This document shows, piece by piece, positions 13,057-30,553 of a DNA stretch of 32,864 bases. The DNA is from an uncultured bacterium. Its GTDB lineage: Bacteria; Krumholzibacteriota; Krumholzibacteriia; LZORAL124-64-63. The notes beneath the pieces were generated by a model. That model was given only the letters and a program-made list of their open reading frames with translations. It did not search any database and had not been told where the DNA came from. The translations under genes and the position numbers were made by a program. The stretch is taken from contig CAIOLW010000391.1 in NCBI GenBank assembly GCA_903859215.1, positions 1 through 32,864 of the forward strand, written 5' to 3'. The first letter of the stretch is position 1, and every line of letters starts with the position of its first letter.

Positions 13057-13063
13057 TGGGCCC

Positions 13064-13112: not shown

Positions 13113-13119
13113 ACAAGCC

Positions 13120-13130: not shown

Positions 13131-13141
13131 GGAGAATACCG

Positions 13142-14532: not shown

Positions 14533-15671
14533 GGATCCTGGCCGTCAACTGGCGCGACATCAACGACCCCATGAGCGGGGGCGCCGAGCAGCACCTGCAC
14601 CACATCCTGGCCGGCGCCGTGGGGCGCGGCTGGCAGGTCGACCTGTGCTGCGCCGACTATCCCGGGGGCGGGCCGCGCGGGCAGGTGGACGGCGTCGAGG
14701 TTTACCGCCGCGGGCACTGGACGGTGGCCAACCTGACGGTGCCGACGCTGGTGCGCGAACTGCTGCGACGCCACCGCTACGATCTCATCGTCGAGGACAT
14801 CAACAAGATCCCGTTCTACACGCCGCTCTACGCCGGCAAGGTGCCGGTGCTGGCGATCGTGCCGCACCTGTTCGGCACGACGGTCTACCGCGAGGCCAAC
14901 GCGCTGGTGGCGACCTACGTCTACGGCGCCGAGAGCCTGATCCCGCGCGTGTACGGCCGGTGCGAGTTCGAGGTCATCAGCCCCTCGACCCGCGACGACT
15001 TGATGGCGCGCGGCCTGGACCCCTCGCGCGTGACGACCATCTTCTGCGGGCTGGAGCACGAGCGCTTCACGCTGGCCGACCCGCCGCCGCGCGACGACAC
15101 GCCGCTCCTGGTCAGCTGGAGCCGCCTGCGCCGCTACAAGAGCCTGGACGTGGCCATCCGCGCCTTCGACCTGGTGCAGAAGCAGATGCCCGACGCGCGC
15201 CTGCTGATCATGGGCCGCGGCCCGGACGAGAAGCGCCTGCGCGCACTGGCGGCGCAACTGGGCCTGCAGGACAAGGTCGAGTTCCGCGGCTTCCAGCCGT
15301 GGGACGAACTGGTGCGCACGCTGCACCGCTGCCATGTCTTCCTGAACCCCAGCCCGAAGGAGGGGTGGGGCCTGACGGTGATCGAGGCCAACCAGTGCGG
15401 CCTGCCGGTGGTGGCGACCGACGCGCCCGGCCTGCGCGACTCGGTGCGCGACGGCGAGACCGGCGTGCTGGTGCCGTACGGCGACGCGCAGGCGATGGCC
15501 GACCACGCGCTGCTGCTGCTGCGCGACCGCGACTACCTCGAGCGCATGGCCGCCGGCGCGCGCGCCTGGGCCGCCACGTTCAGCTGGGAGCGCTGTATCG
15601 ACGAGTCCCTCGAACTGATGAAGCGCGCCGCCGCCCAGGGCGCCCGCCCGCCGCGGAAGGACGCCCGGTGA
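14529..15671 (+). CDS. GT4-family glycosyltransferase
   Basis: GTG start overlaps the methyltransferase stop by 4 bases (GTGA). The 380-residue protein has the GT-B fold. The N-terminal domain begins RILAVNWRDINDPMSGGAEQHLHH with the GGAE donor-loop motif. The C-terminal domain has VSWSRLRRYKSLDVAIRAF, IMGRGPDEKRL and the EX7E motif EGWGLTVIE (Glu278 and Glu286), followed by CGLPVVATDAPGLRDSVRDGETG. This is typical of retaining glycosyltransferases that use nucleotide-sugar donors in cell-surface polysaccharide assembly. Donor and acceptor cannot be inferred. It also overlaps the next gene by 4 bases. Confidence 0.93.
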   Translation: MRILAVNWRDINDPMSGGAEQHLHHILAGAVGRGWQVDLCCADYPGGGPRGQVDGVEVYRRGHWTVANLTVPTLVRELLRRHRYDLIVEDINKIPFYTPLYAGKVPVLAIVPHLFGTTVYREANALVATYVYGAESLIPRVYGRCEFEVISPSTRDDLMARGLDPSRVTTIFCGLEHERFTLADPPPRDDTPLLVSWSRLRRYKSLDVAIRAFDLVQKQMPDARLLIMGRGPDEKRLRALAAQLGLQDKVEFRGFQPWDELVRTLHRCHVFLNPSPKEGWGLTVIEANQCGLPVVATDAPGLRDSVRDGETGVLVPYGDAQAMADHALLLLRDRDYLERMAAGARAWAATFSWERCIDESLELMKRAAAQGARPPRKDAR

Positions 15672-16648
15672 GTCCCGCCGTCCGCAGCCGCCTGTTCCTG
15701 GCGCTGAAGGTGCTCGGGACGATTGCGCTGGTCGCGTTCCTGTTGGCCAAGCTGCCGCTGCGCGAAGTCGAGGCCGCGATGAGCCACCCGCACTGGGGCT
15801 GGCTCCTGGCATCGCTCGCCGTCTACGCCGTGTCGGCCGTGCTCGGGGCCTGGCAGTGGGCGCTGATCCTGCGCGGGGTCGGCATCGACGCCGGCTGGGG
15901 CGAGATCGCGCGCCTCTACCACATCGGCCTGTTCTTCAACAATTTCCTGCCGGCGAACATCGGCGGCGACGCCTGGAAGATCCTCGACCTCGGCGCGCGC
16001 GACGGCCGGCGCGCCGGCGTGCTGGGCGCGACGATGCTCGACCGCCTGATCGGCCTCGCCGCGCTGACGGCGCTCGCCTGCCTGGGGATGGGCGCGGCGG
16101 CCGTCCTGCACGTGCCCCTGCCCAAGGTCGCCCTGCTGATGTTGCCGATCGGCGTGCTGCTGTTCGCGGCCCTGGCGGTCCTGCTCTCGCGCCGGCTGGG
16201 CGGCCTGCTGGTGACGATCGCGCGGCGGGTGGGGCTGGCGCGGCTGGCCGGGCCGCTGACCCATTTCACCGATGACCTGGCCCGCGTCGCCCCGCGCATC
16301 GGCTGGCTGAACGGGATCTTCGGGCTCAGCCTGGGGATCCAGTTCCTGCGCCTTGTGACCCACCTTTTGGCGGCCTGGGGGCTGGGTTTTGTCATCAGCG
16401 GGCAGGCTGCCCTCCAGTTGACGGTGCTGATCCCGCTGCTGGCCCTCAGTCTGACCCTGCCTATCTCCATCAACGGCATCGGGTTGCGAGAATCTGTCTC
16501 GGCGGGCCTGCTCACCTGGGCCGGCCTGGCCGCGCCGCAGGCCGTGGCGATGGAACTGGCCGCCTACCTGGTCCAGGTGGCCTTCAGCCTGGTGGGCGGC
16601 GTGTTCCTGTGGCGCCATCGCCGACCGCGCACCCCCGCCGGCAAATAG
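15668..16648 (+). CDS. UPF0104 / YbhN-like integral membrane protein (flippase-type family)
   Basis: GTG at 15668 overlaps the GT4 stop (GTGA). 326 residues with about seven or eight transmembrane helices. Family signatures of the lysylphosphatidylglycerol-synthase TM region (PF03706) are visible: FFNNFLPANIGGDAWKI, LGATMLDRLIGL, and ALSLTLPISINGIGLRESV near the C-terminus. There is no soluble aminoacyl-transferase domain, so it is not MprF. Members of this family have been linked to lipid or glycolipid translocation. Together with the preceding methyltransferase and glycosyltransferase, it may move or modify a glycolipid. That role is inference. Confidence 0.88.
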   Translation: MSPAVRSRLFLALKVLGTIALVAFLLAKLPLREVEAAMSHPHWGWLLASLAVYAVSAVLGAWQWALILRGVGIDAGWGEIARLYHIGLFFNNFLPANIGGDAWKILDLGARDGRRAGVLGATMLDRLIGLAALTALACLGMGAAAVLHVPLPKVALLMLPIGVLLFAALAVLLSRRLGGLLVTIARRVGLARLAGPLTHFTDDLARVAPRIGWLNGIFGLSLGIQFLRLVTHLLAAWGLGFVISGQAALQLTVLIPLLALSLTLPISINGIGLRESVSAGLLTWAGLAAPQAVAMELAAYLVQVAFSLVGGVFLWRHRRPRTPAGK

Positions 16649-16649
16649 G

Positions 16650-16669
16650 CCCGGGCGACCAGACCCGGG
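16650..16669 (+). terminator. possible weak terminator hairpin
   Basis: CCCGGG (16650-16655) and CCCGGG (16664-16669) form a 6-bp stem with an 8-base loop directly after the UPF0104 stop codon and before a predicted promoter. No T-tract follows, so termination is uncertain. Confidence 0.3.
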
Positions 16670-16687
16670 AACCGGCAGGAAGCCCGG

Positions 16688-16716
16688 TTGTTCGCTCCAG
16701 TTCGGTGTGCTAGCTT
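16688..16716 (+). promoter_or_regulatory. predicted promoter of the DUF2723 operon
   Basis: TTGTTC (16688-16693), a 17-bp spacer, TAGCTT (16711-16716), with TG at 16708-16709 forming an extended -10. Each hexamer matches consensus at 3 of 6 positions. The location in the 142-base gap before the next gene supports it. Confidence 0.45.
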
Positions 16717-16790
16717 GGCTTGCGACGCCTCCCGACCCTGCAGATGAACCCGGCCGCGATGCGGCCCCGCCCCCTGACGAAGGTGACATC

Positions 16791-19562
16791 GTGACCGCAA
16801 ACTGGTTCCGCCGGCCCCAGGTCCTGATCGCTGCCGGCGTGTTCGCCCTGACGCTCGGCGTCTACACGGCGACCCTGAACACGACCACCCCGTTCTGGGA
16901 CTCCGGCGAGTTCATCACCACCAGCCACATCGTGGGTGTCCCGCACCAGCCGGGAACGCCGCTCTATGTGCTGATGGGCCGGGTCTTCGACATCCTGCTG
17001 AGCGGCCAGCCCGACATCACCAAGGCGTCGATGCACACGGCCTGGGCCGTCAACTTCATGTCGGCGTTCTTCAGCGCGCTGGCGGTCATGTTCATCTACC
17101 TGCTGATCTGGGAGCTGGCGCGCCGCGCCGATCCCGATTCGGGATGGCTGGCCCACGTCGGCGGCGTGGTTGGCGCCCTGTTCCTGGCCTTTTCCACGAC
17201 GTTCTGGGGCAGCGCGCTCGAGGCCGAGGTCTACGGCCTGGCGGCCTTCATGCTGGCGCTGATGGCCTGGCTGTCGGTGCAGTGGTACCAGCACCGGGCC
17301 CACGTCGGCAGCAACCACCTCCTGCTACTGATGATCTACCTGCTGGGCCTGGGCGTCGGCTTCCACCTGGGCACGCTGCTGGTCTACCCGGGCATCTTCG
17401 TGCTGATGGTGCTCGGCAGCCGCCGCAAGCTGCCCCTGCTCGACGTGCTGGTGATGAGCGCCGGCCTGGCGCTGTTCCTGTTCTCGACGACGACCAGCAA
17501 CAACGGGCTGATCTTCGCCATGCTGGCCGTGTACCTGGTCGTAGTCGGCATCCGCGCGTTCAACGGCCACCGCTTCGCGCTGTGGGGCAGCGCGCTGTTC
17601 TTCCTGGGCCTGACCGTGCACGCGATGATGATGATCCGCGCCGGCGCCCATCCGGAGCCGTTCGTCAACCAGACGTCGCCGAAGGACTTCAGCACGCTGA
17701 TGTCGGTGATCCGGCGCGAGCAGTACCCGCCGCTCAACCCGTTCAACCGCCAGGCGCCGCTGGGCTGGCAGTTCGGCTACTACTACAAGTTCCTGATGCA
17801 GCAGTTCTGGTTCCTGGGCTCGGGCACGGGCCTGCTGACGACCATCTCGACGGTGCTGGGACCGATCTTCCTGGCTCTGGTCGGCGTGTTCCACGGGTTC
17901 CGCCGGATGCGCCCGCTGGTGTTCGTACCGCTGGTGGGCTACCTGATCAACGGCGAGATCCTGACGCTGTACCTGAACTTCACGAACCACGAGGTGCGTG
18001 AGCGCGACTACTTCTACTTCGCGGCCTTCATGTTCGCGGCCGTGTTCATCGGCATGGGCGTCGCCGCGCTGCTGCGCTACCTGGCGGGCGCGGAGGGGAA
18101 GTCGGCCGCTCAGATGGAGCGCGAGGACAAGAACGGCGACTGGCTGCGCGTCGCCGCAACGATCAAGCCGGTCAAGCTGAAGCCGGTGACGATCGCGGCC
18201 GGCGCGGTGCTCCTGCTGCTGCCGCTGCTGCCGCTGCTGCCGGGCAGCGCGAAGTGGTTCGAGCACGACAACACGAAGAACTACATCGCCTACGAATACG
18301 CCTGGAACATCCTGAACGGCTGCGACCAGAACGGCATCCTGTTCACCAACGGCGACAACGACACGTTCCCGATCTGGTACCTGCAGGAGGTCGAGAAATG
18401 CCGCCGCGACGTGACGGTGGTGAACCTCTCGCTGGTCAACCTGCCGTGGTACATCAAGCAGCTCAAGCACAACGTCGAACACCCGCTGGCCATGCGCCGC
18501 ACGGACCAGCAGATCGACGAGCTGCGGCACCGCATGTACGAGGACCCGAAGACGGGCGAGCGCACGTTCGTCATGATCAAGGACTACGTCCTCGAGGACA
18601 TCATCGCGACCAACAACTCGGGCGACAAGCGGCCGGCCTTCTTCGCCGTGACCATCCCGTCCGAGAACATGCAGCGCTACTTCCCGAACCTGCAGATGGA
18701 GGGCATGGACTACCGGCTGCTGGACAAGCCGGGCCCGGACAACCAGCCCGTCACCGATCCGCAGGCCGTGATCCAGAACATGCTGGGCGTGTACCGGCTG
18801 GGGTCGATCATGGACGCCGGCGACACGGAGCGACAGGCCGCGTACCGGTCGATGGCCGGCCTGGCCGGCGACGGCCCGCGGCAGGGCCCGGGGCAGACGA
18901 CGAAGGCCCTGGGTTCGGCCGACCTCAACCGGCTGGTCGACATGCTGGGCAAGGAGCGCAAGGACCAGTTCCGCGTGGCCAACGCGACGTTCCTGCTGGG
19001 CAATTATCCGGCGGCCCTCAACCGCGCCGGGTACGAGTTCTACCTGAAGGCGAACGAGGTCTTCCAGACCGACCGCGTGAAGTACAAGGAACTGCTCGAG
19101 TGCTCGCTGGCGGCGTTCCGGGCCAGCCTCGTGGTGGTGCCGTTCAACGACCAGGCCCTCGAGTTCTTCCCGCTGCTGCTGGTGCAGGCCTACAGGGATG
19201 ACGAAGCCGTGGCGGTGCTGAACTCGCTCAAGGGCAACGTCCCGGCGAAGGACGAAGAACGCCTCGTGTTCTCCGCGATCAGCGGCTTCGTGCGCGGGGG
19301 CGTGCCCGAACTGGGCGTGAAGTGGCTGACCGACCACATCGCGCAGGAGCCCGAGCGGAAGTTCTACTACTCGGCGTTGTTCGGCGTGCACCAGGCGCTG
19401 GGCGAGGTGCCGAAGGCGCGCGCCGTCATGGAAGCGTGGCAGAAGCAGAGCGGCGAGCAGGACCCCGACATGGCCAAGGCGCTCACGCAGATGCGCAGCA
19501 GCGCCGGCCAGAGCGAACAGGACCAGATCAGGCAGAAGGTGGAGGGCGCGCTTGGCAAGTGA
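16791..19562 (+). CDS. DUF2723 (TMEM260-type) membrane glycosyltransferase
   Basis: GTG at 16791 with GAAGG at 16779-16783. 923 residues. The N-terminal half has about 12 transmembrane helices. After the first helix comes TPFWDSGEFITTSH (Asp37, Glu40) and HQPGTPLYVLMGRVF, the hallmark of PF11028 and the likely GT-C catalytic loop. The last helix is built on a Leu-Leu-Pro repeat near nt 18210-18242. The C-terminal 400 residues are soluble and presumably extracytoplasmic, starting NGDNDTFPIWYLQEVEKCRRD, with helical repeat-like segments towards the end. Human TMEM260, in the same family, is a protein O-mannosyltransferase; a bacterial counterpart is plausible but not shown by sequence alone. 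It leads a tightly overlapped operon with an epimerase and two GT2 enzymes. Confidence 0.9.
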   Translation: MTANWFRRPQVLIAAGVFALTLGVYTATLNTTTPFWDSGEFITTSHIVGVPHQPGTPLYVLMGRVFDILLSGQPDITKASMHTAWAVNFMSAFFSALAVMFIYLLIWELARRADPDSGWLAHVGGVVGALFLAFSTTFWGSALEAEVYGLAAFMLALMAWLSVQWYQHRAHVGSNHLLLLMIYLLGLGVGFHLGTLLVYPGIFVLMVLGSRRKLPLLDVLVMSAGLALFLFSTTTSNNGLIFAMLAVYLVVVGIRAFNGHRFALWGSALFFLGLTVHAMMMIRAGAHPEPFVNQTSPKDFSTLMSVIRREQYPPLNPFNRQAPLGWQFGYYYKFLMQQFWFLGSGTGLLTTISTVLGPIFLALVGVFHGFRRMRPLVFVPLVGYLINGEILTLYLNFTNHEVRERDYFYFAAFMFAAVFIGMGVAALLRYLAGAEGKSAAQMEREDKNGDWLRVAATIKPVKLKPVTIAAGAVLLLLPLLPLLPGSAKWFEHDNTKNYIAYEYAWNILNGCDQNGILFTNGDNDTFPIWYLQEVEKCRRDVTVVNLSLVNLPWYIKQLKHNVEHPLAMRRTDQQIDELRHRMYEDPKTGERTFVMIKDYVLEDIIATNNSGDKRPAFFAVTIPSENMQRYFPNLQMEGMDYRLLDKPGPDNQPVTDPQAVIQNMLGVYRLGSIMDAGDTERQAAYRSMAGLAGDGPRQGPGQTTKALGSADLNRLVDMLGKERKDQFRVANATFLLGNYPAALNRAGYEFYLKANEVFQTDRVKYKELLECSLAAFRASLVVVPFNDQALEFFPLLLVQAYRDDEAVAVLNSLKGNVPAKDEERLVFSAISGFVRGGVPELGVKWLTDHIAQEPERKFYYSALFGVHQALGEVPKARAVMEAWQKQSGEQDPDMAKALTQMRSSAGQSEQDQIRQKVEGALGK

Positions 19563-20613
19563 GCACATCCGGGGCGCGGACGCCCGCGAGATTGTCGCCG
19601 GCCTGCCCGCGCGCGTGACGGACATCCTGGCGCCCGGCGCGCCGGTGGTCGTCACCGGTTGCGCGGGTTTCATCGGCAGCACCATCAGCGAGGCGCTGCT
19701 GGAACTGGGCTGCCGCGTGACGGGCGTCGACTGCCTGACCGACTACTACGACCCGGCGCTCAAGCGCGAGAACCTGGCCGGCGCCCTGGCGCACCCGAAC
19801 TTCACGTTCCGCCAGGAGGACCTGCAACAGCTGGACCCGGCGGGGCTGCTGGCGGGACAGCGCGCGTGCTTCCACCTGGCGGCCCAGGCCGGCGTGCGCG
19901 CCAGTTGGGGCGAGTACTTCGCCGAGTACCTCGGCCGCAACGTGATGGCTACGCAGCGCCTGCTCGAGGCCTGTCGCCAGCCGGCGGTCAGCGGCACGCT
20001 GGCGCGCTTCGTCTACTCGAGCAGCAGCTCGGTCTACGGGGACCAGGAACAGCTGCCGGTCACCGAACAGGCGCTGCCGCAGCCGCGCTCGCCGTACGGC
20101 GTGACGAAGATGGCGGCCGAGCACCTGTGCGTGCTGTATTCGGCGAACTTCGGCGTGCCGACCAGCAGCCTGCGTTACTTCACGGTCTACGGCCCGCGCC
20201 AGCGGCCGGACATGGCCTTCCGCAAGTACATCGAGGCGGCGCTCGACGGCCGCGTCTTCCACGTCTACGGCGACGGGCAGCAGACGCGTGACTTCACCTA
20301 CGTCGCCGACGCCGTGCGCTCGAACCTGCTGGCCGTGGCCTGCGACAAGCCGTGGGAAGTGTTCAACACCGGCGGCGGCAGCCGCGTCGCGTTCGGCGAA
20401 TCGCTGGCGCTGCTCGGCGACCTGCTGCGCGAACAGGTTCCCGGCATCTCGGCCACGATCGAGTACCGCCCGGTCGCCGACGGCGACGTGCGCGACACCT
20501 TCGCCGACCGCACCCATGTCGAGGCCGTCATCGGCTATCGCCCGACCATCGAGTTCGCCGAGGGCCTGCGCCGCGAGGTGGCGTGGGCCGTGGCCCGGAG
20601 GCGCAATTCTTGA
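19552..20613 (+). CDS. NAD-dependent nucleotide-sugar epimerase/dehydratase (extended SDR)
   Basis: TTG at 19552 with GGAGGG at 19541-19546; it overlaps the DUF2723 gene by 11 bases. The 353-residue protein has the Rossmann motif TGCAGFIGS (Gly36, Gly39, Gly42), VDCLTDYYDPALKREN, a serine-rich SSSSVYG segment and the catalytic YGVTK (Tyr182, Lys186). The C-terminal part has FTVYGPRQRPDMAFRKYI, DGQQTRDFTYVADAV and FNTGGG. This pattern is closest to the UDP-glucuronate/UDP-galactose 4-epimerase group. The exact sugar is not determinable. It probably supplies an activated sugar to the glycosyltransferases in the same operon. The first 30 residues before the Rossmann fold are an unusual extension. 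Confidence 0.92.
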   Translation: MASEHIRGADAREIVAGLPARVTDILAPGAPVVVTGCAGFIGSTISEALLELGCRVTGVDCLTDYYDPALKRENLAGALAHPNFTFRQEDLQQLDPAGLLAGQRACFHLAAQAGVRASWGEYFAEYLGRNVMATQRLLEACRQPAVSGTLARFVYSSSSSVYGDQEQLPVTEQALPQPRSPYGVTKMAAEHLCVLYSANFGVPTSSLRYFTVYGPRQRPDMAFRKYIEAALDGRVFHVYGDGQQTRDFTYVADAVRSNLLAVACDKPWEVFNTGGGSRVAFGESLALLGDLLREQVPGISATIEYRPVADGDVRDTFADRTHVEAVIGYRPTIEFAEGLRREVAWAVARRRNS

Positions 20614-21575
20614 ATGATCCAGGCGTGAGCGACCGCGACCCGGCCCCGGCGACCTGCGACCTGTCGGTCGTCGTGCCGGCCTTCAACGAGGCCGAGTCGC
20701 TGCCCGAGCTGGTCGACCGCATCGCCGCGGCCGCCGACGGGCGCGGCTTGTCGTGGGAAGTCTGGATCATCGACGACGGCAGCACCGACGAGACCTTCGC
20801 GGTCACGCAGGGGCTGGCCGCCCGGCGACCGCAGGTGCACGGTCTCTCGTTCGGCCGCAACTTCGGCAAGGCCGCCGCGCTGTCGGCCGGCTTCGCCGCG
20901 AGCGGCGGCGCCATCGTCATCACGATGGACGCCGACCTGCAGGACGACCCTGCCGAAATCCCCGCGCTGATCGACAAGCTGGACGAAGGGTACGACCTGG
21001 TCTCCGGCTGGAAGCAGAAGCGCCGCGACAGCCTCGTGAAGAACCAGACCAGCAAGGTGTTCAACTGGTTCACCGGCCGCATGTGCGGCCTGAAGCTGCA
21101 CGACTTCAACTGCGGCCTGAAGGCGTATCGCCGCGAGGTCACCCAGCGTGTCCGCTTGTACGGCGAGATGCACCGCTACGTGCCGGCGCTGGCGCAACTC
21201 GAGGGCTTCCGTGTCGCCGAACTGCCCGTCAGGCACGCCGCGCGCAAGTACGGCAAGACCAAGTACGGCATGGCTCGCTTCATCAACGGCTTCCTCGACC
21301 TGCTGACGGTGTACTTCCTGCACGCCAAGCGCACCTCGCCGCTGCACTTCTTCGGCCGCCTGGGCCTGGCCTGCTTCGCCGGCGGCGGGGGCATCAGCCT
21401 CTATTTCCTGGCCTGGTGGCTGCTGGGGCACGGCCTGCGCGTGCGCCCGATGCTCGTGCTGGGCCTGGTGCTGATCGTGCTGGCCCTGCAGTTCATCAGC
21501 CTGGGCCTGATCGCCGAGATGATCGTGGCCGGCCGCCGTCCCGAGACCGAGTACCGGATCAGCCGTCGTGCCTGA
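20610..21575 (+). CDS. GtrB/CsbB-like polyprenyl-phosphate glycosyltransferase (GT2)
   Basis: The start is chosen as TTG 20610, because GGAGG (20597-20601) sits 8 bases upstream and the codon overlaps the previous stop as TTGA; GTG 20625 is an alternative. 321 residues. The GT2 domain begins LSVVVPAFNEAESL, with IIDDGSTDET, SFGRNFGKAAALSAG and the metal-binding MDADLQDDP (Asp107, Asp109). KTKYGMARFINGFLDL leads to two C-terminal transmembrane helices (about residues 245-305). That architecture is the GtrB/CsbB/ArnC class, which transfers a sugar to undecaprenyl or another polyprenyl phosphate on the cytoplasmic face. A YfhO-family gene lies one gene downstream, as in CsbB-YfhO systems. Confidence 0.93.
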   Translation: MNDPGVSDRDPAPATCDLSVVVPAFNEAESLPELVDRIAAAADGRGLSWEVWIIDDGSTDETFAVTQGLAARRPQVHGLSFGRNFGKAAALSAGFAASGGAIVITMDADLQDDPAEIPALIDKLDEGYDLVSGWKQKRRDSLVKNQTSKVFNWFTGRMCGLKLHDFNCGLKAYRREVTQRVRLYGEMHRYVPALAQLEGFRVAELPVRHAARKYGKTKYGMARFINGFLDLLTVYFLHAKRTSPLHFFGRLGLACFAGGGGISLYFLAWWLLGHGLRVRPMLVLGLVLIVLALQFISLGLIAEMIVAGRRPETEYRISRRA

Positions 21576-22500
21576 GCGTGACGCCCTCCGGCACGACGGA
21601 CGCGGCGGCCCGTTGCCGCCGCTGGTCGTGGTCGTCGTCAACTGGAACGGGCAGGCCGACCTGCGCGACTGCCTGGGCTCGCTGCGCGATTCGCGCTACC
21701 CGGGGCTGCGCGTGGTCATGGTCGACAACGGTTCGACCGACATGTCCGTGCCCTGGACGCGGCGTCATCACCCCGGCGTCGAGGTGATCGAGGCCGGCGC
21801 CAACCTGCGGTGGGCCGGCGGCAACAACCTTGCGCTGCAGCGCCTGCAGGCCGAAGGTTCGGACCCGTACATCCTGCTGCTGAACGCCGACACGATCGTG
21901 CCCGAGGGCAGCCTGCGCTCGCTGGCGCTGGCGATGGCGGCCGACCCGACCGCCTGGCTCGCCACCCCGCGCATCTGCTACGCCGCCGACCCGGCGCGCG
22001 TCTGGTACGACGGCGGCGTCGTCGGGCGGCGCAGCGGCTGGGTGCGCCACGACGGCATCCGCAAGCTGGCCGGCCGCCTGGACCCGCAACCGCGGTACGT
22101 CGACTACGGCACCGGGTGCGCGCTGATGCTGGCCCCCGGCACCCTGGCGCGCCTGGGCATGCTGGACGATTCGTACCATTTCTACGGCGAGGATGCCGAC
22201 TACTCCCTGCGCGCGCGGGAGCGGGGCGGCAACATCCTGCACGTGCCGCGGTCGCTTGTGCTGCACAAGGTGTCCGCTTCCCTGGGGCAGGATAGTCCGT
22301 ACCGCGTGTGGCTGCGCAGCCGCAGCCACGTGCGACTGATGCGGAACCACTGGCCCCGCCGCCAGTGGCCGCTGCTGTTCGTGGCGCAGGCCGGTTTCTT
22401 CGCCGGCCACATGGCCTGGAACCTGTGGCACGGCCGCCTGGCCACGGCGCTGGCCGTCTGGCAGGGCGCCATCGACGAGCTGCGGGGCCTCGACAACTGA
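21568..22500 (+). CDS. GT2-family glycosyltransferase, rhamnosyltransferase-like
   Basis: GTG at 21568 overlaps the preceding gene by 8 bases. 310 residues. Features: VVVVVNWNGQADLRDCLGSL, VVMVDNGSTD, NLRWAGGNNLAL, the divalent-cation motif LLLNADTIVPEG, YGTGCALMLAPGTLARLG and YGEDADYSLRARERG. This is the pattern of rhamnosyl- and related inverting transferases that build cell-surface glycans. There is no full transmembrane domain, though the C-terminal segment around FVAQAGFFAGHMAW is hydrophobic and may be membrane-associated. It is the last gene before a predicted promoter and the YfhO gene. Confidence 0.92.
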   Translation: MPERDALRHDGRGGPLPPLVVVVVNWNGQADLRDCLGSLRDSRYPGLRVVMVDNGSTDMSVPWTRRHHPGVEVIEAGANLRWAGGNNLALQRLQAEGSDPYILLLNADTIVPEGSLRSLALAMAADPTAWLATPRICYAADPARVWYDGGVVGRRSGWVRHDGIRKLAGRLDPQPRYVDYGTGCALMLAPGTLARLGMLDDSYHFYGEDADYSLRARERGGNILHVPRSLVLHKVSASLGQDSPYRVWLRSRSHVRLMRNHWPRRQWPLLFVAQAGFFAGHMAWNLWHGRLATALAVWQGAIDELRGLDN

Positions 22501-22505
22501 ACACG

Positions 22506-22532
22506 GGCCGGGCCGCGGTTTACGCCCCGGCC
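22506..22532 (+). terminator. possible weak terminator hairpin
   Basis: GGCCGGG (22506-22512) pairs with CCCGGCC (22526-22532), a 7-bp stem with a 13-base loop, just after the GT2 stop. There is no T-tract. It overlaps the predicted -35 of the next promoter, so its role is uncertain. Confidence 0.3.
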
Positions 22533-22548
22533 TGCCTTCTGGTAGGAT
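22519..22548 (+). promoter_or_regulatory. predicted promoter of the YfhO operon
   Basis: TTTACG (22519-22524), an 18-bp spacer and TAGGAT (22543-22548), preceded by TG at 22540-22541 (extended -10). It lies in the 98-base gap before the YfhO start, and its leader would be about 45 nt. Confidence 0.45.
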
Positions 22549-22598
22549 GATGTCCGGTCGCGGGTTGCCGCGACCGTCACGCGAATCCGGGAGAGGAC

Positions 22599-25154
22599 AT
22601 GGCGCACGCAGGATCCCGCGCGGCGGACACCGCGAAGGACGGCAACGACGGCGCACCGCAGCTTTTCGCCGGGCGTCCGTGGGCGCGCTGGCTGGTGCTG
22701 GCCGCGGCCGTCTGGCTGATCGTCGCGGTGATCTACCCCGGGCCGGTCTTCCAGGGGATGACGTTCCGCAGCGCCGACGCCGGCAACGCCGACGCCTTCA
22801 CGCGCTCGGGGGACGCCGCCGTCGCGCGGGGCGAGGCGGCCAAGTGGAACCCGTACCTGTTCGCCGGCATGCCCACCTTCGGTTCGCTGACGTACGTGCC
22901 CGGCCTCTACCCGCCGGCGGCGCTGTTCCACTTCCTCCAGGGCAGCCTGGGGATGCCGCCCCTGACGTGGATGATCGTGCACCTGGTCTTCGGCGGCCTG
23001 GGCATGGTGTGGCTGCTGTCCCGCTGGCGCCTGCCGACGTCGTCGCTGCTGCTGGGCGCGGCGCTGTTCCTGCTGTTCCCGCAGGTCGTCGCCTGGGGCG
23101 TGCACGGGCACGGCTCGAAGCTGGGCGCCGCGATGTACCTGCCGTGGATCGTCGGCTGGACGCTGCGCGCGCTGGACGGCGCCGGGCCGCGCGCGATCGG
23201 CATGCTGGGCCTGCTGACGGGCCTGCAGTTGCTGCGCGGCCATTTCCAGATCAGCTACTACACGCTGGCGGTGGCCTTCTGGCTGGCCGCGTGGGGCTCG
23301 CTGCGCCCGTTCGAGGCGGCGCAGAAGGCCGTGACCGGCGCCGTTCGCGCGCGACGTTTCGGGGGCTTCGCTGCCGGCATCGCCCTGGCCTTCCTGCTGG
23401 GCGCGGTGCTGCTGGTGCCCGTCAAGCAGTACGCGGGCATCTCCATCCGCGGGCAGGACACCGAGGGCGGCGGCGGCGTGGGCCTGGAGTACGCGTCCGG
23501 TTGGGCGTTGGCGCCGGCGGAGACCGGCACCTTCATCCTGCCGGCGGCCGCGGGCTTCGGCCAGGCCACGTACATGGGCCGCATGCCGTTCAACGACTAT
23601 CCGAACTACTACGGCCTCCTCTGGCTGGCGCTGGCCGCGTTCGCGTTCGTGCGCGGCGGTCGCAGCCTGTGGGGCGCGCTGGTGGCCGTGTCGGTGCTGG
23701 CGGTGTTCGTCTCGTTCGGCACGTTCGGCTTCGGCCTCTACGAGCTCCTGTACAAGGTGCTGCCGTTCTTCAACAAGTTCCGTGTGCCGTCGATGATCCT
23801 GGTCGTGCCGGCGTTCGCGCTGGCGATCCTGGCCGCGCGCGGGCTGGCCAGGCTGGGGCAGGGCGGCGTGCCGGCCACGCGGCCGCTGCTCGCTCCGATC
23901 GCGCTCGGGGCGGTCGGCCTGCTGATGCTCGCCGGCGGCGGCGCCTCGCTGTTCGAGGGCGCGTACAAGTCCGGCCTGCAGGGGCTGGCCTCGGCCGGCG
24001 GCAAGCAGGCGCCCGATGTCCTGCTGCAGGCGGCGTGGGGGCTGCAGAAGGCGAGCCTGGTGCGCATCGGCCTGGTGCTGCTGGCCGCGGCCGGCGCGCT
24101 GGCGTTCGCCGCCCGCAACGCCGTGTTCCGGCGGCGCGGCCTGGCCTGGGTGCTGCTGGCGCTGGCCTGCGTCGACCTGCTGGGTGTCGACCGCCTCATC
24201 GTCCACCCCGAGCAGGGGCTGCTGCAGGTGGCGCGCGGGGCGAACGGGCAGGGGCAACTGGTCGAGGCGCCGCAACTATTGACCGCGCCCGCGGCGGGCG
24301 GCGCGGGCGGGCCGGGCACCGGCGCCGCGACGCTGTCCGCGGCCGTCGGCCACGACCGCATCTGGCCGCTGGGCGAGCACCAGCAGCGCAACACCTGGCT
24401 GGCCGACGGCATCCGCTCGCTGGGCGGATACCACCCGGCCAAGCTGGCGAGCTACGAGGCCATCCGCAGCCGCCTCTACGGCGACCAGCCGGCGGGCCGC
24501 CTGGCTTCGTGGCTGGGCGCGCGCCTGGTGGTCCTGGACGGCCGGCTGGACCCGCAGCAGCTGCCGTTGCTGGCGCAGATCGGCTGCGACGTCGAGCCGG
24601 ACCCGCTCACAGCCGGCGATGTGGTCGCCTACCGCAACCGCTCGGCGCTGCCGCGCGCGCGGCTGGTCTCGCGCTGGGAGCCGGCGCCCGGCGGCGGCCG
24701 CGCCGCGCTCGGGACGTTCCTGGACGGCATCCAGGCCGGCCGCATCGATGTCCGCGGCGCCGTGCGCCTGGACGCGACGCCCGACCCCGCCCCGGCGCCG
24801 TCGGAGGCGCCGCTGCCGGTGCCCGAATTCGTGACCGATGGCACGGACCAGGTCGTCCTGCGCACGAACGCCGCCACGCCGGCGGTGCTCGTGCTGGCCG
24901 ACATGATGGCGCCCGGCTGGAGCGTCGACATCGACGGCCGCGGCGCGAAGCTGCTGACGGCCGACCTGGTTCTGCGCGCGGTGGCCGTGCCCGCGGGCAG
25001 CCACACCGTGACCTTCCGCTACCGGGACTCGTCGTACCGCGCGGGATTGACGCTGACGCTGATCGGGGCCATCCTGACGCTGGGATTCGTTGCGGTTTCC
25101 TTCCTGCCGCGCCGCCTGCTGCCGGGTCGCGTCGCGAACCTCGTGAAAGGCTGA
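22599..25154 (+). CDS. YfhO-family GT-C membrane protein
   Basis: ATG at 22599 with GGGAGAGG at 22589-22596. 851 residues, normal for YfhO (PF09586). About 12-13 transmembrane helices follow a short cytoplasmic N-terminus. The first external loop carries YPGPVFQGMTFRSADAGNAD and KWNPYLFAGMPTFGSLTYVPGLYPP, the conserved loop-1 region of the family. GRMPFNDYPNYYGLLWLALA and VLPFFNKFRVPSMIL are further family-like segments. The C-terminal soluble part has the typical LVLADMMAPGWSVDIDG and AVPAGSHTVTFRYRD before a last helix. In Firmicutes, YfhO takes a sugar from the undecaprenyl-phosphate carrier made by CsbB and glycosylates lipoteichoic acid. The acceptor here must differ or is unknown. Seven bases separate it from the next gene. 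Confidence 0.92.
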   Translation: MAHAGSRAADTAKDGNDGAPQLFAGRPWARWLVLAAAVWLIVAVIYPGPVFQGMTFRSADAGNADAFTRSGDAAVARGEAAKWNPYLFAGMPTFGSLTYVPGLYPPAALFHFLQGSLGMPPLTWMIVHLVFGGLGMVWLLSRWRLPTSSLLLGAALFLLFPQVVAWGVHGHGSKLGAAMYLPWIVGWTLRALDGAGPRAIGMLGLLTGLQLLRGHFQISYYTLAVAFWLAAWGSLRPFEAAQKAVTGAVRARRFGGFAAGIALAFLLGAVLLVPVKQYAGISIRGQDTEGGGGVGLEYASGWALAPAETGTFILPAAAGFGQATYMGRMPFNDYPNYYGLLWLALAAFAFVRGGRSLWGALVAVSVLAVFVSFGTFGFGLYELLYKVLPFFNKFRVPSMILVVPAFALAILAARGLARLGQGGVPATRPLLAPIALGAVGLLMLAGGGASLFEGAYKSGLQGLASAGGKQAPDVLLQAAWGLQKASLVRIGLVLLAAAGALAFAARNAVFRRRGLAWVLLALACVDLLGVDRLIVHPEQGLLQVARGANGQGQLVEAPQLLTAPAAGGAGGPGTGAATLSAAVGHDRIWPLGEHQQRNTWLADGIRSLGGYHPAKLASYEAIRSRLYGDQPAGRLASWLGARLVVLDGRLDPQQLPLLAQIGCDVEPDPLTAGDVVAYRNRSALPRARLVSRWEPAPGGGRAALGTFLDGIQAGRIDVRGAVRLDATPDPAPAPSEAPLPVPEFVTDGTDQVVLRTNAATPAVLVLADMMAPGWSVDIDGRGAKLLTADLVLRAVAVPAGSHTVTFRYRDSSYRAGLTLTLIGAILTLGFVAVSFLPRRLLPGRVANLVKG

Positions 25155-25161
25155 CGGCCCG

Positions 25162-25914
25162 ATGAGCGCGCACGCCCACGACCGGACCTGCCCGCCGCTG
25201 GAACCGACCGCGGCGGTCGTCGTCGTGCCTACCTACAACGAGGCCGACAACATCGGCCGCCTGGTCCCGCTCATCCTGGCCCGCGACCCGCGCCTGTCGG
25301 TGCTGGTGGTCGACGACGGCTCGCCGGACGGCACCGCGGCCATCGTCAAGGCGCTGCCGGGCTTCGGGGATCGCATCCTGCTGCTGGAGCGGACGAAGAA
25401 GGAGGGCCTCGGCGCCGCCTACATCGCCGCCTTCAAGTGGATCCTGGCCAACACGAAGTTCGACGTCGTCTTCGAGATGGACGCCGACTTCAGCCACGAC
25501 CCGTCGGCGCTCGACGAGTTCCTGGTGCAGATCCGCGACCACGACCTGGTGCTCGGCAGCCGCTACCTGTACGGCATCACGGTCGTGAACTGGCCGCTGC
25601 GGCGCCTGGTCCTGAGCGTGGGCGCGAACCGCTATGCCGGCTTCGTCACCGGCCTGCCGATCAAGGACTGCACGGGCGGTTTCAAGTGCTTCCGGCGGAC
25701 GACGCTCGAGCGCCTGCCGCTGGACCGCATCCGCAGCGACGGCTACTCGTTCCAGATCGAGACCACCTATATCTGCTGGAAGAAGGGGCTGAGCATCCGC
25801 GAGCTCCCGATCATGTTCGTCGACCGGCAGGTGGGCACCTCGAAGATGTCGAAGCGGATCATCCTCGAGGCGATGTGGATGATCTGGGCGATGCGCCTGC
25901 GCAGGACGCACTGA
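25162..25914 (+). CDS. polyprenol-phosphate-mannose synthase-like GT2 (DPM1/Ppm1 type)
   Basis: 250 residues, the length of soluble DPM1-type synthases. Motifs in order: VVVPTYNEADNIGRLVP, VVDDGSPDGTAAIV, KEGLGAAYIAAFKW, MDADFSHDP (Asp107, Asp109), LVLGSRYLYG, IKDCTGGFKCFRR and DGYSFQIETTY, ending VDRQVGTSKMSKRIILEA. These match the Ppm1/DPM1 group, which makes polyprenyl-phosphate-mannose from GDP-mannose. The sugar is inferred from family similarity; glucose is the main alternative. No transmembrane helix is present. The start is ATG 25162. Its stop overlaps the next gene's ATG (TGATG). It could supply the lipid-linked mannose used by the GT-C proteins in the window. Confidence 0.9.
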   Translation: MSAHAHDRTCPPLEPTAAVVVVPTYNEADNIGRLVPLILARDPRLSVLVVDDGSPDGTAAIVKALPGFGDRILLLERTKKEGLGAAYIAAFKWILANTKFDVVFEMDADFSHDPSALDEFLVQIRDHDLVLGSRYLYGITVVNWPLRRLVLSVGANRYAGFVTGLPIKDCTGGFKCFRRTTLERLPLDRIRSDGYSFQIETTYICWKKGLSIRELPIMFVDRQVGTSKMSKRIILEAMWMIWAMRLRRTH

Positions 25915-28076
25915 TGGCGGGCACGCGCGGCCAGGCCGCCGAGGGCCACGCCCGCCTGGCGATCGTCATCGTCCACTACAACACCAGCGAGGACCTCGCG
26001 CGCTGCCTCGAGTCGATCGCCGCCTACCCGCCCTCGGTCCGCCACCAGGTCGTGATCGTCGACAACGCTTCGCGCGACGAAGGCCTGGCCGCGGTCCACC
26101 AGCGCCATCCCGAGTGCCAGTGGCTCTTCAACACCGAGAACACGGGCTACGCGCGCGGCTGCAACAAGGGCATGGCGGCCATCGTCGCCGACTACTACCT
26201 GATCCTGAACCCGGACATCGTCGTGCAGCCGGGCGCGCTCGACCACCTGCTCGAGTTCGCCGATGCGCACCCGCGCGCGGGACTGGTCGGCCCGCAACTG
26301 CTGAACGAGGACGGCAGCCTGCAGGAGTCCTGCCGCCGCTTCTACACGCTGCGCACGCTGCTGCTGCGGCGCACCATCCTCGGGAAGATCTTCCCCGACA
26401 GCCGGACGGTGCAGCGCCACCTGATGCGCGACTTCGACCACCGCAGCAGCCGGCCCGTCGACTGGGTGCTGGGCGGCTGCGTGCTGGCGCGGCGCTCGGC
26501 GCTGGACCGCAGCGGGCCCATGGACGAGCGCTTCTTCCTGTACTTCGAGGACGTCGACTGGTGCTACCGGATGTGGCAGGCCGGCTTCGAGGTGCAGTAC
26601 ACGCCCGACGCGCGCTTCAGCCACCGCCACCGGCGCGCCAGCGCGCGCGGGCGCTTCGGCCGCTCGTGGTGGCTGCACCTGGGCAGCCTCATCTCGTTCT
26701 ACGAGAAGTGGGGGATGTTCGTCTGGCTGTTGAAGAAGTGGCGCGACCCGCTGCTCTCGCAACTGCTGTGGGTGCTGGACATGGGCGGCCTGGCCGCGGC
26801 GTTCGTCGGCGCCTACGCCATCCGGCAGGCGGCCGCCGACTGGTTCTCCGAGCCGCTGTTCCCGTTCCACGAGTACCTGCCGCTGCTGGGCTTCGCCGGC
26901 CTGCTCGCCACGGTGACGTTCCTGATGACCGGGCGCTACCGCGTCGACGGCCGCGACCGGGCGCGCAGCCTGGCCGAGCACACGCAGCAGATGGGCGTGC
27001 TCGCGGTGCTGCTGCTGGCGGCCACCTACCTGGGCCACCTCGACGTGGTCAGTCGCGCGGTGCTGCTGCTGTTCATCCCGCTCCTGGCGCTGGCGACGTT
27101 CGCGGGCGACCGCCTGGTGCGCCGCGCCCGCCGCCGCCTCGAGCGCGGCCGCCTGACGCTCGAGCGCACCCTGCTGGCGGGCCCGCCCGCCCGCGTCGGC
27201 GCCTGGCTGGCGTCCCTGGGCGAGGGGGCCCGGCGGGGCCTGGACCTCGCCGGCTACGTGGCCGATCCGGTCGCCGGCACCGGTTTGCCGGCCCTGGGCG
27301 CCGGCGAGGTGCCCTGGCTGGGGCGGCCGGGGGAGATTCCCGAGATCGTGCGGCGCTACCGGGTCTCGCAGGTGGTATTCTGGGAAGAGGCTGGTCCGCG
27401 TTCGGCGGAGGACTGGGCGGTGCTGGCCACCCTGCGCCGCGAGCGTATCCGCCTGCGCTGGCCCCTGTCGGCCGCCTGGCTGGCCGTTGCGGGCGATCAT
27501 GTCGAGACTTTCGGTGACGAACTGAGCGCCGTGCACGCCAGCGGCGGGTCCCAGGCGCTGGCGGCGCTGCCCCGGCGGCTCGGCGGCCTGGCCGCGGGCG
27601 CAGGGCTGGCGCTGCTGTCGGCGCCGGCGTGGCTGTGGCTGCGCGCGGTGCGCGTGCCGCGCGGCGCGGCCGCCATCGTGACGGTGGAACTCAGTGATTT
27701 GTGGGGGCACGATCCCGCGTTGACGCTGGCGGTCGATCGCGCCGGGCGCGTGCTGCCCCTGTCCTGGCAATGGCGCGTGGCCGGTGCGCTCTGCGCAGGC
27801 CGCGTCGCGGTGAGCGGGCCGCGCCCGCAGACGGGCGGGCGGCGCGAGGCGCCGCGCACGCCCGACGAGGTTCTGACGTTCTGGCGCAGCACGCCGTGCG
27901 CGCCCGGCCTGACCGGGCCGTGGGCGGCGGCGCCGGCCGGCCGGCAGCCGGGAGTGTCGGCGAGGTTCAGGCAACTGTGGCGGGATCCGGGCGGCTTCGG
28001 GCTGCTGAACGCCACCGGGTCGTTGGCCGGGGGCGGGATTGCGGGAGCGCACCGGCCGCGGGAGGAAGGCTCTTGA
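25914..28076 (+). CDS. fusion of a GT2 glycosyltransferase with a degenerate WbaP/WcaJ-like phosphoglycosyltransferase
   Basis: A 720-residue protein. Residues 1-280 are a rhamnosyltransferase-like GT2: IVIVHYNTSEDLARCLESI, IVDNASRDEG, NTGYARGCNKG, LILNPDIVVQPG, YFEDVDWCYRMWQAG. Then come four transmembrane helices (about 283-401) and a Rossmann-like domain (about 415-545), the usual N-terminal layout of WbaP/WcaJ enzymes. A fifth hydrophobic helix (about 555-577) resembles the membrane entry of the catalytic domain. The catalytic part is shortened: only SGPRPQT (634-640) and APGLTGPW remain recognisable. The segment that should hold the Asp-Glu catalytic dyad before LPQL reads GRVLPLSWQW. 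Phosphosugar transfer is therefore doubtful, while the GT2 half looks intact. It is overlapped on both sides by neighbours. Confidence 0.85.
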   Translation: MAGTRGQAAEGHARLAIVIVHYNTSEDLARCLESIAAYPPSVRHQVVIVDNASRDEGLAAVHQRHPECQWLFNTENTGYARGCNKGMAAIVADYYLILNPDIVVQPGALDHLLEFADAHPRAGLVGPQLLNEDGSLQESCRRFYTLRTLLLRRTILGKIFPDSRTVQRHLMRDFDHRSSRPVDWVLGGCVLARRSALDRSGPMDERFFLYFEDVDWCYRMWQAGFEVQYTPDARFSHRHRRASARGRFGRSWWLHLGSLISFYEKWGMFVWLLKKWRDPLLSQLLWVLDMGGLAAAFVGAYAIRQAAADWFSEPLFPFHEYLPLLGFAGLLATVTFLMTGRYRVDGRDRARSLAEHTQQMGVLAVLLLAATYLGHLDVVSRAVLLLFIPLLALATFAGDRLVRRARRRLERGRLTLERTLLAGPPARVGAWLASLGEGARRGLDLAGYVADPVAGTGLPALGAGEVPWLGRPGEIPEIVRRYRVSQVVFWEEAGPRSAEDWAVLATLRRERIRLRWPLSAAWLAVAGDHVETFGDELSAVHASGGSQALAALPRRLGGLAAGAGLALLSAPAWLWLRAVRVPRGAAAIVTVELSDLWGHDPALTLAVDRAGRVLPLSWQWRVAGALCAGRVAVSGPRPQTGGRREAPRTPDEVLTFWRSTPCAPGLTGPWAAAPAGRQPGVSARFRQLWRDPGGFGLLNATGSLAGGGIAGAHRPREEGS

Positions 28077-28120
28077 AGATGCAGGTGACGATGAAGGTGA
28101 CGATGAAGGTGAAGATGCAG
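28073..28120 (+). repeat. 12-bp tandem repeat at the propeller-protein start
   Basis: Four 12-bp units in frame: TTGAAGATGCAG (28073), GTGACGATGAAG (28085 and 28097) and GTGAAGATGCAG (28109). Every unit begins with an NTG codon and has ATG as its third codon, giving eight candidate start codons in 48 bases. It encodes a repeating hydrophobic-Lys/Thr-Met-Gln/Lys pattern. Confidence 0.9.
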
Positions 28121-30553
28121 ACGACGATACGCGCGATGACCGGCGCGATGCAGTCGCGGCGCGCCGCCGCCGCGAGGCGCCTGCTGGCGGCCGGCCTGTG
28201 GCTGGCTGCGGGCGTCGCCGGCGCGCAGACGGTGGACTGGCAGCCGCTGTTTGCCCAGCACGACGTGACGGCGCTGCAGGAGGTGGGCGACCACGTCTTC
28301 GTCGGTCTTGAGGGCGGCGGCCTGGCCGCGCTGCCCAGCGCCGACCCGCAGGGCGGGGAGGTCTGGACCGCGGGGCAGGACCTGTCTGGCAACCGCGTGA
28401 CCGACCTGGCCTGGACGGGCCGGAACCTGTGGGTGGCCACCGAGGGCGGCGGGTTGACGCGCATCGGCGATCCCGCCGGCACGCCCGTGTTCCGGCAGTT
28501 CACGAGCAACCTGGGCGGGCTGGACCTGACCGCCGTCACCGGCGCGATCGTCGGCGGCAGCGAGCGCGTCTACTACGCGATGAACGGCGCCGGCATCGGC
28601 CAGATCATCGACGGCCTGTCGGGCAACCTCTATACGGCCGAGCAGGACGGCCTCATCTCGAACACGGTCAATGCGCTGCAGGTCTGGCAGGGGCAGCTGT
28701 TCGCCGGCACGCCGATCGGCGTCTCCCGCTTCGCGAACAACGTCTTCACCAACCAGAACACGGGACTCGGCAGTCTCGTGGTCAACGACTTCGCGATCGA
28801 CGATGGCGGCAACCTGCTGGCCGCGACCAACGGCGGCATCTACCGGTGGGACGATTCGTCCTCAGCCTGGCAGTACGTCTACTCGCTGGGCGCCTGGGTC
28901 ATGCGCGTCAGTTGCCGGGCCGGCGAGATCTGGGCGTTGGGCCTCAACAATATCGGCAACGGCGTGTTGCAGGCCTCCAGCGGCGGCACCTGGCGCACCG
29001 TGACCCTGACCAACCCCAAGTGCCGCGCGATCTACGCCGGCGCGGACGTCTGGGTCGGCGGACGTTCGGTGCAGACAAGCGGGGCGCGCACGCTGGAACA
29101 GGCCTATGTCGGGAAGCGCGGCGCCGGCGACCAGTTCGCGCTGCGCGACTTCAGGTCGAGCGTCGTGAAGAACGCCGAGGGCGTCACCTTTGGCGCGGGC
29201 GACGATTTCTGGATCGGCGACTGGACGGGCCTCGGCGCCTCCCGGTTCGACGGCACCGCGTGGTCGTACCTGTGGGAGAGCGCCAGCGTGGCGGCCGATT
29301 CCAACGGCATCTTCACCGCCGGCGGCAACGTGCTGAGCATGGCCTCCGGGCCGGACGGCACGATCTGGGGCGGCCAGTACACCTCCGGCCTCCTGCGCAT
29401 CGACGGCGCGACGGGCAAGGTGCACCACGTGACGCCGACCGAGGGCCTGTCGGGCCGCGCAGTCATCAACCTGGTCACGCACCCGGACGGCCCGCTGTTC
29501 GTCATGCACGACGCGGTCGACACCGAAAAGGTCGACGTGCTGGTCGACCCCGCGCACTGGCGCAATCCCGCGAACTGGATGGTGCTGCCGCGCACGGGCG
29601 GCCTGGGCGCCGGCCCGGGCGTGTGGGACGCCGTGGTGCAGCGGCGCGACGTGGTGTGGTTCGCCGTCGAGGACGTGGGCCTGGTGCGCTGGGACATCAA
29701 CGGCGATGCCGCGGGCCCGAACGACCCGTTGACCTGGCTGGACACCACGGACGACCGCTGGGACGCGCCCGTGCGCTACATTCCCGGCACATCGCTCGAC
29801 CTGGGCAAGGCGCTGGGGCTGGCCGTCGGGCCGGACGGCTCGATCTGGGCCGGCGGCAACGGCGTCGTGCAGTTCACCTACAACGACGCCACGCGGGTGG
29901 CCACGCTGGTGACGGCCGTCAGCGAGAAGTTCTCGGCCAGCAGCCAGGGCCTGGTCAACGGCAACGTGGCCGACCTGGCCGTCGACGCGAACAGCGACGT
30001 GTGGGTCGCCACGCGCACCGGCCTCAACCGCATCCGCGGCACCGGGTCGGACATCGCGGTCACAGCCTGGATCGACCTCGCGAACTACTACGGCTCGGAG
30101 ACCTACCCGACGCTGTATTCGTCCAACGTGATCGCGCCGCTGCCGGGCCTGACGTACCGCAAGCTGGTCATCGACGCCACGGGCCGGCGCCTGCTCCTGA
30201 GTTCCGACCAGGGCGCCGTGCTCCTGACCGTCGGGAGCGGGGACGGCGGCACCGGCGCCGTCGAACTGGCCGGCGCGTACTGCTACCCGAACCCGTGGCT
30301 GGCCGATGGGACCGGCGTCTCCCGGCTGAAGCTGGGCGGGTTGCCGGCAGGCGTGTCGGCGGACGAACCGGCGCTCGTGGAGATCTACGACCTGCAGGGG
30401 GAACTGGTGTATCGCGACCCCGAGGTGATGGCGGGGAACGCGTTCTGGAACGGGACCAACCGCATGGGCAACCTCGTGCGCACCGGCATGTACGTGGTGC
30501 ACGTGAGCTGGCGCGGCAAGGACACCGCGCTGACACTGGCCATCGTCCGCTGA
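28073..30553 (+). CDS. secreted beta-propeller protein with FlgD/T9SS-like C-terminal domain
   Basis: 826 residues if it starts at TTG 28073 (TTGA overlap with the upstream stop, GGAGG at 28061-28065). Starts at 28079, 28136 or 28148 are also possible. A Sec signal peptide is clear: RRLLAAGLWLAAGVAGA, with cleavage expected after AGA at residue 51. The body has repeated propeller-blade motifs of the two-component-regulator type (PF07494-like), for example VTDLAWTGRNLWVATEGGGL, VNALQVWQGQLFAGTPIGVS, VNDFAIDDGGNLLAATNGGIY and VADLAVDANSDVWVATRTGL. The last 90 or so residues (CYPNPW, VEIYDLQGELVY, WNGTNRMGNLVRTGMYVVHV) form a FlgD-Ig or type A sorting-like domain typical of FCB-group secreted proteins. 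No DNA-binding or kinase domain follows, so it is an extracellular protein. Ligand and role are unknown. Confidence 0.87.
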   Translation: MKMQVTMKVTMKVKMQTTIRAMTGAMQSRRAAAARRLLAAGLWLAAGVAGAQTVDWQPLFAQHDVTALQEVGDHVFVGLEGGGLAALPSADPQGGEVWTAGQDLSGNRVTDLAWTGRNLWVATEGGGLTRIGDPAGTPVFRQFTSNLGGLDLTAVTGAIVGGSERVYYAMNGAGIGQIIDGLSGNLYTAEQDGLISNTVNALQVWQGQLFAGTPIGVSRFANNVFTNQNTGLGSLVVNDFAIDDGGNLLAATNGGIYRWDDSSSAWQYVYSLGAWVMRVSCRAGEIWALGLNNIGNGVLQASSGGTWRTVTLTNPKCRAIYAGADVWVGGRSVQTSGARTLEQAYVGKRGAGDQFALRDFRSSVVKNAEGVTFGAGDDFWIGDWTGLGASRFDGTAWSYLWESASVAADSNGIFTAGGNVLSMASGPDGTIWGGQYTSGLLRIDGATGKVHHVTPTEGLSGRAVINLVTHPDGPLFVMHDAVDTEKVDVLVDPAHWRNPANWMVLPRTGGLGAGPGVWDAVVQRRDVVWFAVEDVGLVRWDINGDAAGPNDPLTWLDTTDDRWDAPVRYIPGTSLDLGKALGLAVGPDGSIWAGGNGVVQFTYNDATRVATLVTAVSEKFSASSQGLVNGNVADLAVDANSDVWVATRTGLNRIRGTGSDIAVTAWIDLANYYGSETYPTLYSSNVIAPLPGLTYRKLVIDATGRRLLLSSDQGAVLLTVGSGDGGTGAVELAGAYCYPNPWLADGTGVSRLKLGGLPAGVSADEPALVEIYDLQGELVYRDPEVMAGNAFWNGTNRMGNLVRTGMYVVHVSWRGKDTALTLAIVR

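Follow-up and report, generated by a model that had tools for sequence, protein, structure and literature searches.

A TMEM260-family glycosyltransferase in a Krumholzibacteriota gene cluster and its candidate role in bacterial protein O-mannosylation

Introduction

Human TMEM260, which is mutated in a congenital heart and kidney syndrome, is a protein O-mannosyltransferase of CAZy family GT117 (PDB 9rql, 9rqm and 9rqn). Its substrates are IPT/immunoglobulin (Ig)-like domains (PMC11292533). Here we describe a bacterial member of this family, encoded at positions 16791-19562 of a 32,864-nucleotide stretch of DNA (the window) that is part of a 4.33-Mb Krumholzibacteriota metagenome-assembled genome (MAG) with a GC content of 71%. 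An earlier note on this DNA had proposed that the protein, assigned there to DUF2723 (PF11028), and a DPM1-like synthase encoded at 25162-25914 form an O-mannosylation system, and had called the function of bacterial DUF2723 proteins largely unassigned. The latter statement fits the literature collection that we searched, in which DUF2723 appears in no paper and the PF11028 matches are all Plasmodium papers, apparently through gene identifiers.

Other described systems bear on this locus. The PMT and POMT enzymes (GT39, PF02366) have a GT-C fold, an acidic loop-1 site and a polyprenyl-phosphate-sugar donor. The O-glycan of Bacteroidota has a reducing-end mannose that bears rhamnose and is attached to Ser or Thr of D(S/T)x motifs, and its core transferase and flippase were described as undiscovered in a 2025 review (PMC12871550); when the LFG locus is deleted the hexose-deoxyhexose core stays in place, the mutants keeping residual deoxyhexose-hexose (PMC8729774). 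In the CsbB/YfhO systems of Firmicutes, a GT2 synthase and YfhO act as partners (PMC8035078).

The TMEM260-like protein and its loop-1 site

The predicted product of 16791-19562 (start codon GTG, with AAGGTG a few bases upstream) matches PF11028 with 153.8 bits against a curated cut-off of 24.2 (E=5e-45), and belongs to a known family, already listed in Pfam as "Protein O-mannosyl-transferase TMEM260-like". When the single sequence was compared with the PDB using phmmer, human TMEM260 (9rql) was the only match (E=1.3e-13). A 31-member profile aligned with 9rql over two regions, one comprising loop 1 and the adjacent helices and the other the post-membrane domain. The loop that follows the first membrane helix contains D37 (GAC) and E40 (GAG); together with H52 and P54, these two align with identical residues in human TMEM260. 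All 31 homologues examined from the same phylum have D37, E40 and H52, and these residues are equally invariant in 62/62 homologues across the Fibrobacteres-Chlorobi-Bacteroidetes (FCB) superphylum (Krumholzibacteriota, Eisenbacteria, Zixibacteria, KSB1, Calditrichota, Neomarinimicrobiota, Cloacimonadota, Gemmatimonadota and Bacteroidota), as is E144 in a later loop (62/62). This conservation agrees with the earlier suggestion that Asp37 and Glu40 of the first external loop fit a GT-C active site.

An AlphaFold2 model of the protein (mean pLDDT, the predicted local distance difference test, 90.6; predicted template modelling score 0.89) likewise agrees with the GT-C fold proposed in the earlier note, its Foldseek matches being the GT-C enzymes STT3/AglB, AftA, Pmt4, ArnT, ALG12 and ALG9. 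TMEM260 was absent among these matches, its entries seeming to be newer than the fold library. In our structure comparisons a viral fold library gave nothing informative. We conclude that the protein is a bacterial TMEM260-family (GT117/PF11028) glycosyltransferase, with a modelled GT-C fold and a predicted location in the inner membrane.

Profile matches obtained with the homologue alignment show tetratricopeptide repeats (TPR) at the C-terminus, the AlphaFold2 model also has a TPR tail, and a C-terminal TPR tail is a known feature of the TMEM260/TMTC enzymes. The bacterial and human proteins also have homologous post-membrane domains, in which the bacterial family carries an invariant TNGDNDTFPLWY-type motif. 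However, the bacterial protein is about 190 residues longer, and of the TNGD-N-D-T segment after the membrane part (the bacterial-specific GDNDTF motif), which is invariant in the bacterial family, TMEM260 keeps only GD; the lipid is presumably polyprenol in the bacterium and dolichol in human cells. The shared GT-C fold, acidic loop-1 site and expected donor notwithstanding, the protein differs from PMT/POMT in having DxxE where these have DE and in that no MIR domain was found in it. Assignment of DUF2723 to the PMT family was considered and rejected, as PF02366 was matched neither in this protein nor in the host genome. Three further PF11028 genes, which are more divergent, occur elsewhere in the host genome (G000:C219:105009-105536, G000:C248:3452-3907 and G000:C156:12166-12663).

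Across the groups sampled, PF11028 is almost universal. It was found in 74/80 Krumholzibacteriota genomes (45/46 of the high-quality ones), 50/50 Gemmatimonadota and 246/247 Bacteroidota, and in 1/14 control genomes, that one being a Bacteroides. The best 80 loci of an 84,980-species scan include loci from FCB-type phyla; two have the unexpected labels Actinomycetota and Puniceispirillum, and we regard these as misnamed MAGs. Tandem pairs of full-length DUF2723 genes occur in one KSB1 locus and in some Krumholzibacteriota (L061, L062, L066, L086, L090, L093 and L143), possibly a two-subunit arrangement comparable to PMT heterodimers.

The DPM1-type synthase

The earlier note had described the gene at 25162-25914 as encoding a soluble DPM1/Ppm1-like protein, and our comparisons agree. 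Its product has a GT2 domain with a DxD motif, its best solved relative is dolichol monophosphate mannose synthase (PDB 5mlz, E=3e-22), and it carries the DPM1-type motif MDADFSHDP and no membrane domain. D107xD109 and SH are invariant in 20 orthologues. It shares the GT2 fold and DxD-SH motif with archaeal and eukaryotic DPM1/DPMS, and is a soluble single domain like human DPM1. From these sequence features we regard it as a candidate polyprenyl-phosphate-mannose synthase that is predicted to use GDP-mannose; the host genome has a ManC/GMP-type (GDP-mannose-type) gene.

DPM1 orthologues, nearly always single-copy where they occur, are present in 70/78 Krumholzibacteriota, in 98/99 Bacteroidota, and in 34/36 further genomes that were picked for carrying DUF2723. 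Both genes occur together in 64 Krumholzibacteriota genomes. In 40 of these they share a contig, and in 38 of the 40 they are within 15 kb of each other, at a distance of about 8 kb; in the other 24, mostly fragmented assemblies, they are on separate contigs. The co-occurrence that the earlier note had proposed to test is strong in Krumholzibacteriota and Bacteroidota, and also in KSB1 and Calditrichota, although it does not extend to most Gemmatimonadota (see below). We have nevertheless rejected presence/absence as discriminating evidence, because most groups sampled have the two genes almost universally.

The gene cluster

Both genes lie in a run of same-strand genes from 13714 to 28076, most of which overlap or almost touch their neighbours. 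In order, the features are:

13714-14532, + strand: class I S-adenosylmethionine methyltransferase, candidate glycan O-methyltransferase (Pfam Methyltransf_11, 3.9e-22; kept beside DUF2723)
14526-15671, + strand: GT4 glycosyltransferase (Pfam Glycos_transf_1, 6e-44)
15668-16648, + strand: PF03706 flippase-like membrane protein, candidate lipid-sugar flippase (Pfam, 1.3e-31; TIGR00374 below cut-off)
16791-19562, + strand: TMEM260-like GT-C glycosyltransferase, PF11028 (formerly DUF2723), 923 aa (Pfam, 9rql match, AlphaFold2/Foldseek)
16899-16946, + strand: putative loop-1 active-site segment, with D37 at 16899-16901, E40 at 16908-16910 and H52 at 16944-16946 (invariance; human TMEM260 alignment)
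19552-20613, + strand: short-chain dehydrogenase/reductase-type sugar-nucleotide epimerase (best PDB match 6zl6, 1.9e-68, deposited as 'Epimerase domain-containing protein')
20610-21575, + strand: ArnC-type GT2 with C-terminal membrane helices, second candidate polyprenyl-phosphate-sugar synthase (PDB ArnC, 2.8e-57)
21568-22500, + strand: GT2 glycosyltransferase (Pfam, 4.1e-16)
22599-25154, + strand: YfhO-like second GT-C glycosyltransferase (sub-threshold PF09586; AlphaFold2 model; Foldseek)
25162-25914, + strand: DPM1-type soluble GT2, candidate polyprenyl-phosphate-mannose synthase, 250 aa (PDB 5mlz; DxD/SH; orthologues)
25914-28076, + strand: GT2 and CoA-binding_3 protein (domain detection)

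The epimerase match, 6zl6, we take to be a UDP-glucuronate 4-epimerase. The ArnC-type protein matches the NCBIfam ArnC model at 7.7e-56, under the equivalog cut-off. The earlier note had counted other GT-C enzymes in the window; the product of 22599-25154 is indeed GT-C-like, with Foldseek matches to ArnT/AftD/STT3 from a model of moderate confidence (pLDDT 69.6), but 11278-13149 (- strand), checked as a possible further one, gave zero Pfam matches. A GT2 synthase, a GT-C enzyme and a putative flippase are co-encoded here, the logic of the CsbB/GtcA/YfhO systems, which likewise have a YfhO-like GT-C. The acceptors of those systems are teichoic acids, however, and in the window a PF03706 protein is present and no GtrA-type flippase was found among the annotated open reading frames (ORFs).

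In 25914-28076 a Bac_transf domain went undetected, whereas the KSB1/Calditrichota counterparts are GT2+CoA_binding_3+Bac_transf proteins. At 27701-30553 the window encodes a secreted-looking protein, the C-terminus of which resembles the PorZ/type IX secretion system C-terminal domain (NCBIfam 3.8e-12, far under the cut-off). Proteins of this type could be acceptors, since human TMEM260 modifies Ig-like folds.

Gene order in two chromosomal settings

In a second chromosomal setting, found in KSB1, Calditrichota and some Zixibacteria, the neighbours are ValRS, RecG and PurE, and the methyltransferase, GT4, TMEM260-like, PF03706 and DPM1 genes are again grouped. Only glycosylation genes are common to the two settings, and this linkage is stronger evidence than gene order alone. 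No YfhO-like or ArnC-type genes were detected in the KSB1/Calditrichota-type setting, and in one KSB1 locus (L139) DUF2723 is the sole GT-C gene found, with DPM1 present. At 12 loci tested outside the phylum, RmlD (dTDP-rhamnose reductase, the last step of dTDP-rhamnose synthesis) directly precedes DPM1; PurE takes this place in L110, and short ORFs alone do so in L149 and L153. KSB1-type loci also conserve a DUF4837 protein between the flippase-like gene and PurE (L139:13738-14772, L110:14780-15814). Two Bacteroidota loci, L201 and L219, were studied more closely; in both, DUF2723 adjoins a polysaccharide deacetylase-like gene and not DPM1. This gene directly follows DUF2723, Pfam-confirmed in the first (L201:1668-2351) and with a similar N-terminal motif in the second (L219:7527-8135).

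Evidence against the pairing and alternative readings

A number of observations weigh against DUF2723 and DPM1 forming a dedicated pair. As a control, the SMC, FtsY, Rib (riboflavin) and NusB genes are equally syntenic with the cluster phylum-wide, and because these are unrelated genes the adjacency within the phylum is weak evidence, which we rejected as sufficient. Moreover, all 50 Gemmatimonadota have PF11028, but an orthologue of DPM1 (at least 49% identity) was found in only 9/50; the other ~41 have GT2 relatives with 28-38% identity, a short fragment, or nothing at that threshold. These data would suit a chromosomal order that is simply inherited, with DUF2723 and DPM1 functionally unlinked, and PurE, ValRS and RecG are similarly syntenic in the KSB1-type loci. 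We doubt this explanation, however, as the glycosylation genes alone are common to both settings.

The cluster itself also offers two candidate donor synthases, DPM1-type and ArnC-type, and at least two GT-C enzymes. The ArnC-type gene is closer to DUF2723, DPM1 directly follows the YfhO-like gene, and in four loci of other phyla (L097, L100, L108 and L142) ArnC-type genes accompany DUF2723 with DPM1 not nearby. The TMEM260-like enzyme might then glycosylate proteins with a sugar other than mannose, perhaps an amino sugar or uronic acid. The ArnC-type protein would load this sugar from a nucleotide sugar made by the epimerase, while DPM1 would serve the YfhO-like GT-C, much as GT2 synthases are paired with YfhO in the CsbB/YfhO systems (PMC8035078). 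The ArnC-type and epimerase genes are conserved and are placed between DUF2723 and DPM1, and UDP-sugar dehydrogenases are present. Even so we find this reading unlikely, given that DUF2723 and DPM1 are kept together without YfhO or ArnC matches in the KSB1/Calditrichota loci, that the characterised TMEM260 is a mannosyltransferase, and that the core sugar on Ser/Thr in Bacteroidota is mannose (PMC12871550). Because of the two synthases, the second GT-C and the ArnC-DUF2723 loci without DPM1, the DPM1-type protein is the probable, albeit not established, donor synthase of the TMEM260-like enzyme, and on this point the pairing proposed in the earlier note is not exclusive.

The acceptor could also differ. 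The enzyme may modify a lipid-linked or lipopolysaccharide/exopolysaccharide acceptor in the periplasm, as ArnT and YfhO do, in a locus for surface polysaccharide. GT4, several GT2s, the GT2-CoA-binding protein (kin of GT2/Bac_transf fusions) and a DegT aminotransferase near the cluster are typical of envelope polysaccharide loci, and ArnT, AftA and ALG9/12 are among the Foldseek matches. We think such a role quite improbable, as the sequence similarity is specifically to the protein O-mannosyltransferase TMEM260, the TPR domain is of the acceptor type found in TMEM260/TMTC, and PF11028 is near universal across phyla with very different envelopes.

Proposed pathway and relation to Bacteroidota O-glycosylation

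We favor a pathway of protein O-mannosylation in which a cytoplasmic GT2 of the cluster, probably the DPM1-type protein, would transfer mannose from GDP-mannose to polyprenyl phosphate, and the PF03706 protein or another flippase would turn the polyprenyl-phosphate-mannose to the periplasmic face. The TMEM260-like enzyme would then use its loop-1 D37/E40 site to attach the sugar to Ser/Thr residues in exported proteins, with the TPR domain perhaps helping to select the acceptor. By extension, PF11028 of the FCB superphylum may be the transferase, so far missing, that initiates general O-glycosylation of the Bacteroidota type, with its Ser/Thr-Man-Rha core. For the mechanism as a whole, this last step included, we judge the chances to be about even. 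The family, fold, loop acids and co-occurrence all agree with the earlier O-mannosylation proposal.

PF11028 fits the Bacteroidota gap because a protein O-mannosyltransferase family is near universal there and clusters with polyprenyl-phosphate-mannose and rhamnose genes in relatives. The clusters belong to the same superphylum and plausibly encode polyprenyl-phosphate-mannose, dTDP-rhamnose and the transferase for the Man-Rha core; the tie to PF11028 itself is drawn from genes and the published glycan structure. The TMEM260-like proteins are thus a strong candidate for the Bacteroidota transferase. The protein's family, fold and conserved site are demonstrated, as are the phyletic spread of PF11028, the clustering of the genes and the presence of a GDP-mannose-type gene; mannose as the sugar of the donor, the flippase, the protein acceptor and the core-glycan link are ones that we infer. 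A test for enrichment of the motif D(S/T)(A/I/L/V/M/T) among exported proteins was discarded and gives no support: two Bacteroidota positive controls were flat with the crude sets used, and the Krumholzibacteriota gene calls were poor.

We tentatively suggest, somewhat short of an even expectation, that PF11028 is the FCB-wide initiating protein O-mannosyltransferase, with the DPM1 orthologue as its donor synthase and human TMEM260 as an evolutionary relative. What is new here is the phylum-wide distribution, the gene linkage in two settings, and a testable tie to the missing Bacteroidota transferase, a question that is narrowed to a single-family candidate with a conserved GT-C site, near-universal presence and clustering with donor-sugar genes. 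If this is true, human TMEM260 would gain a bacterial counterpart for mechanistic work.

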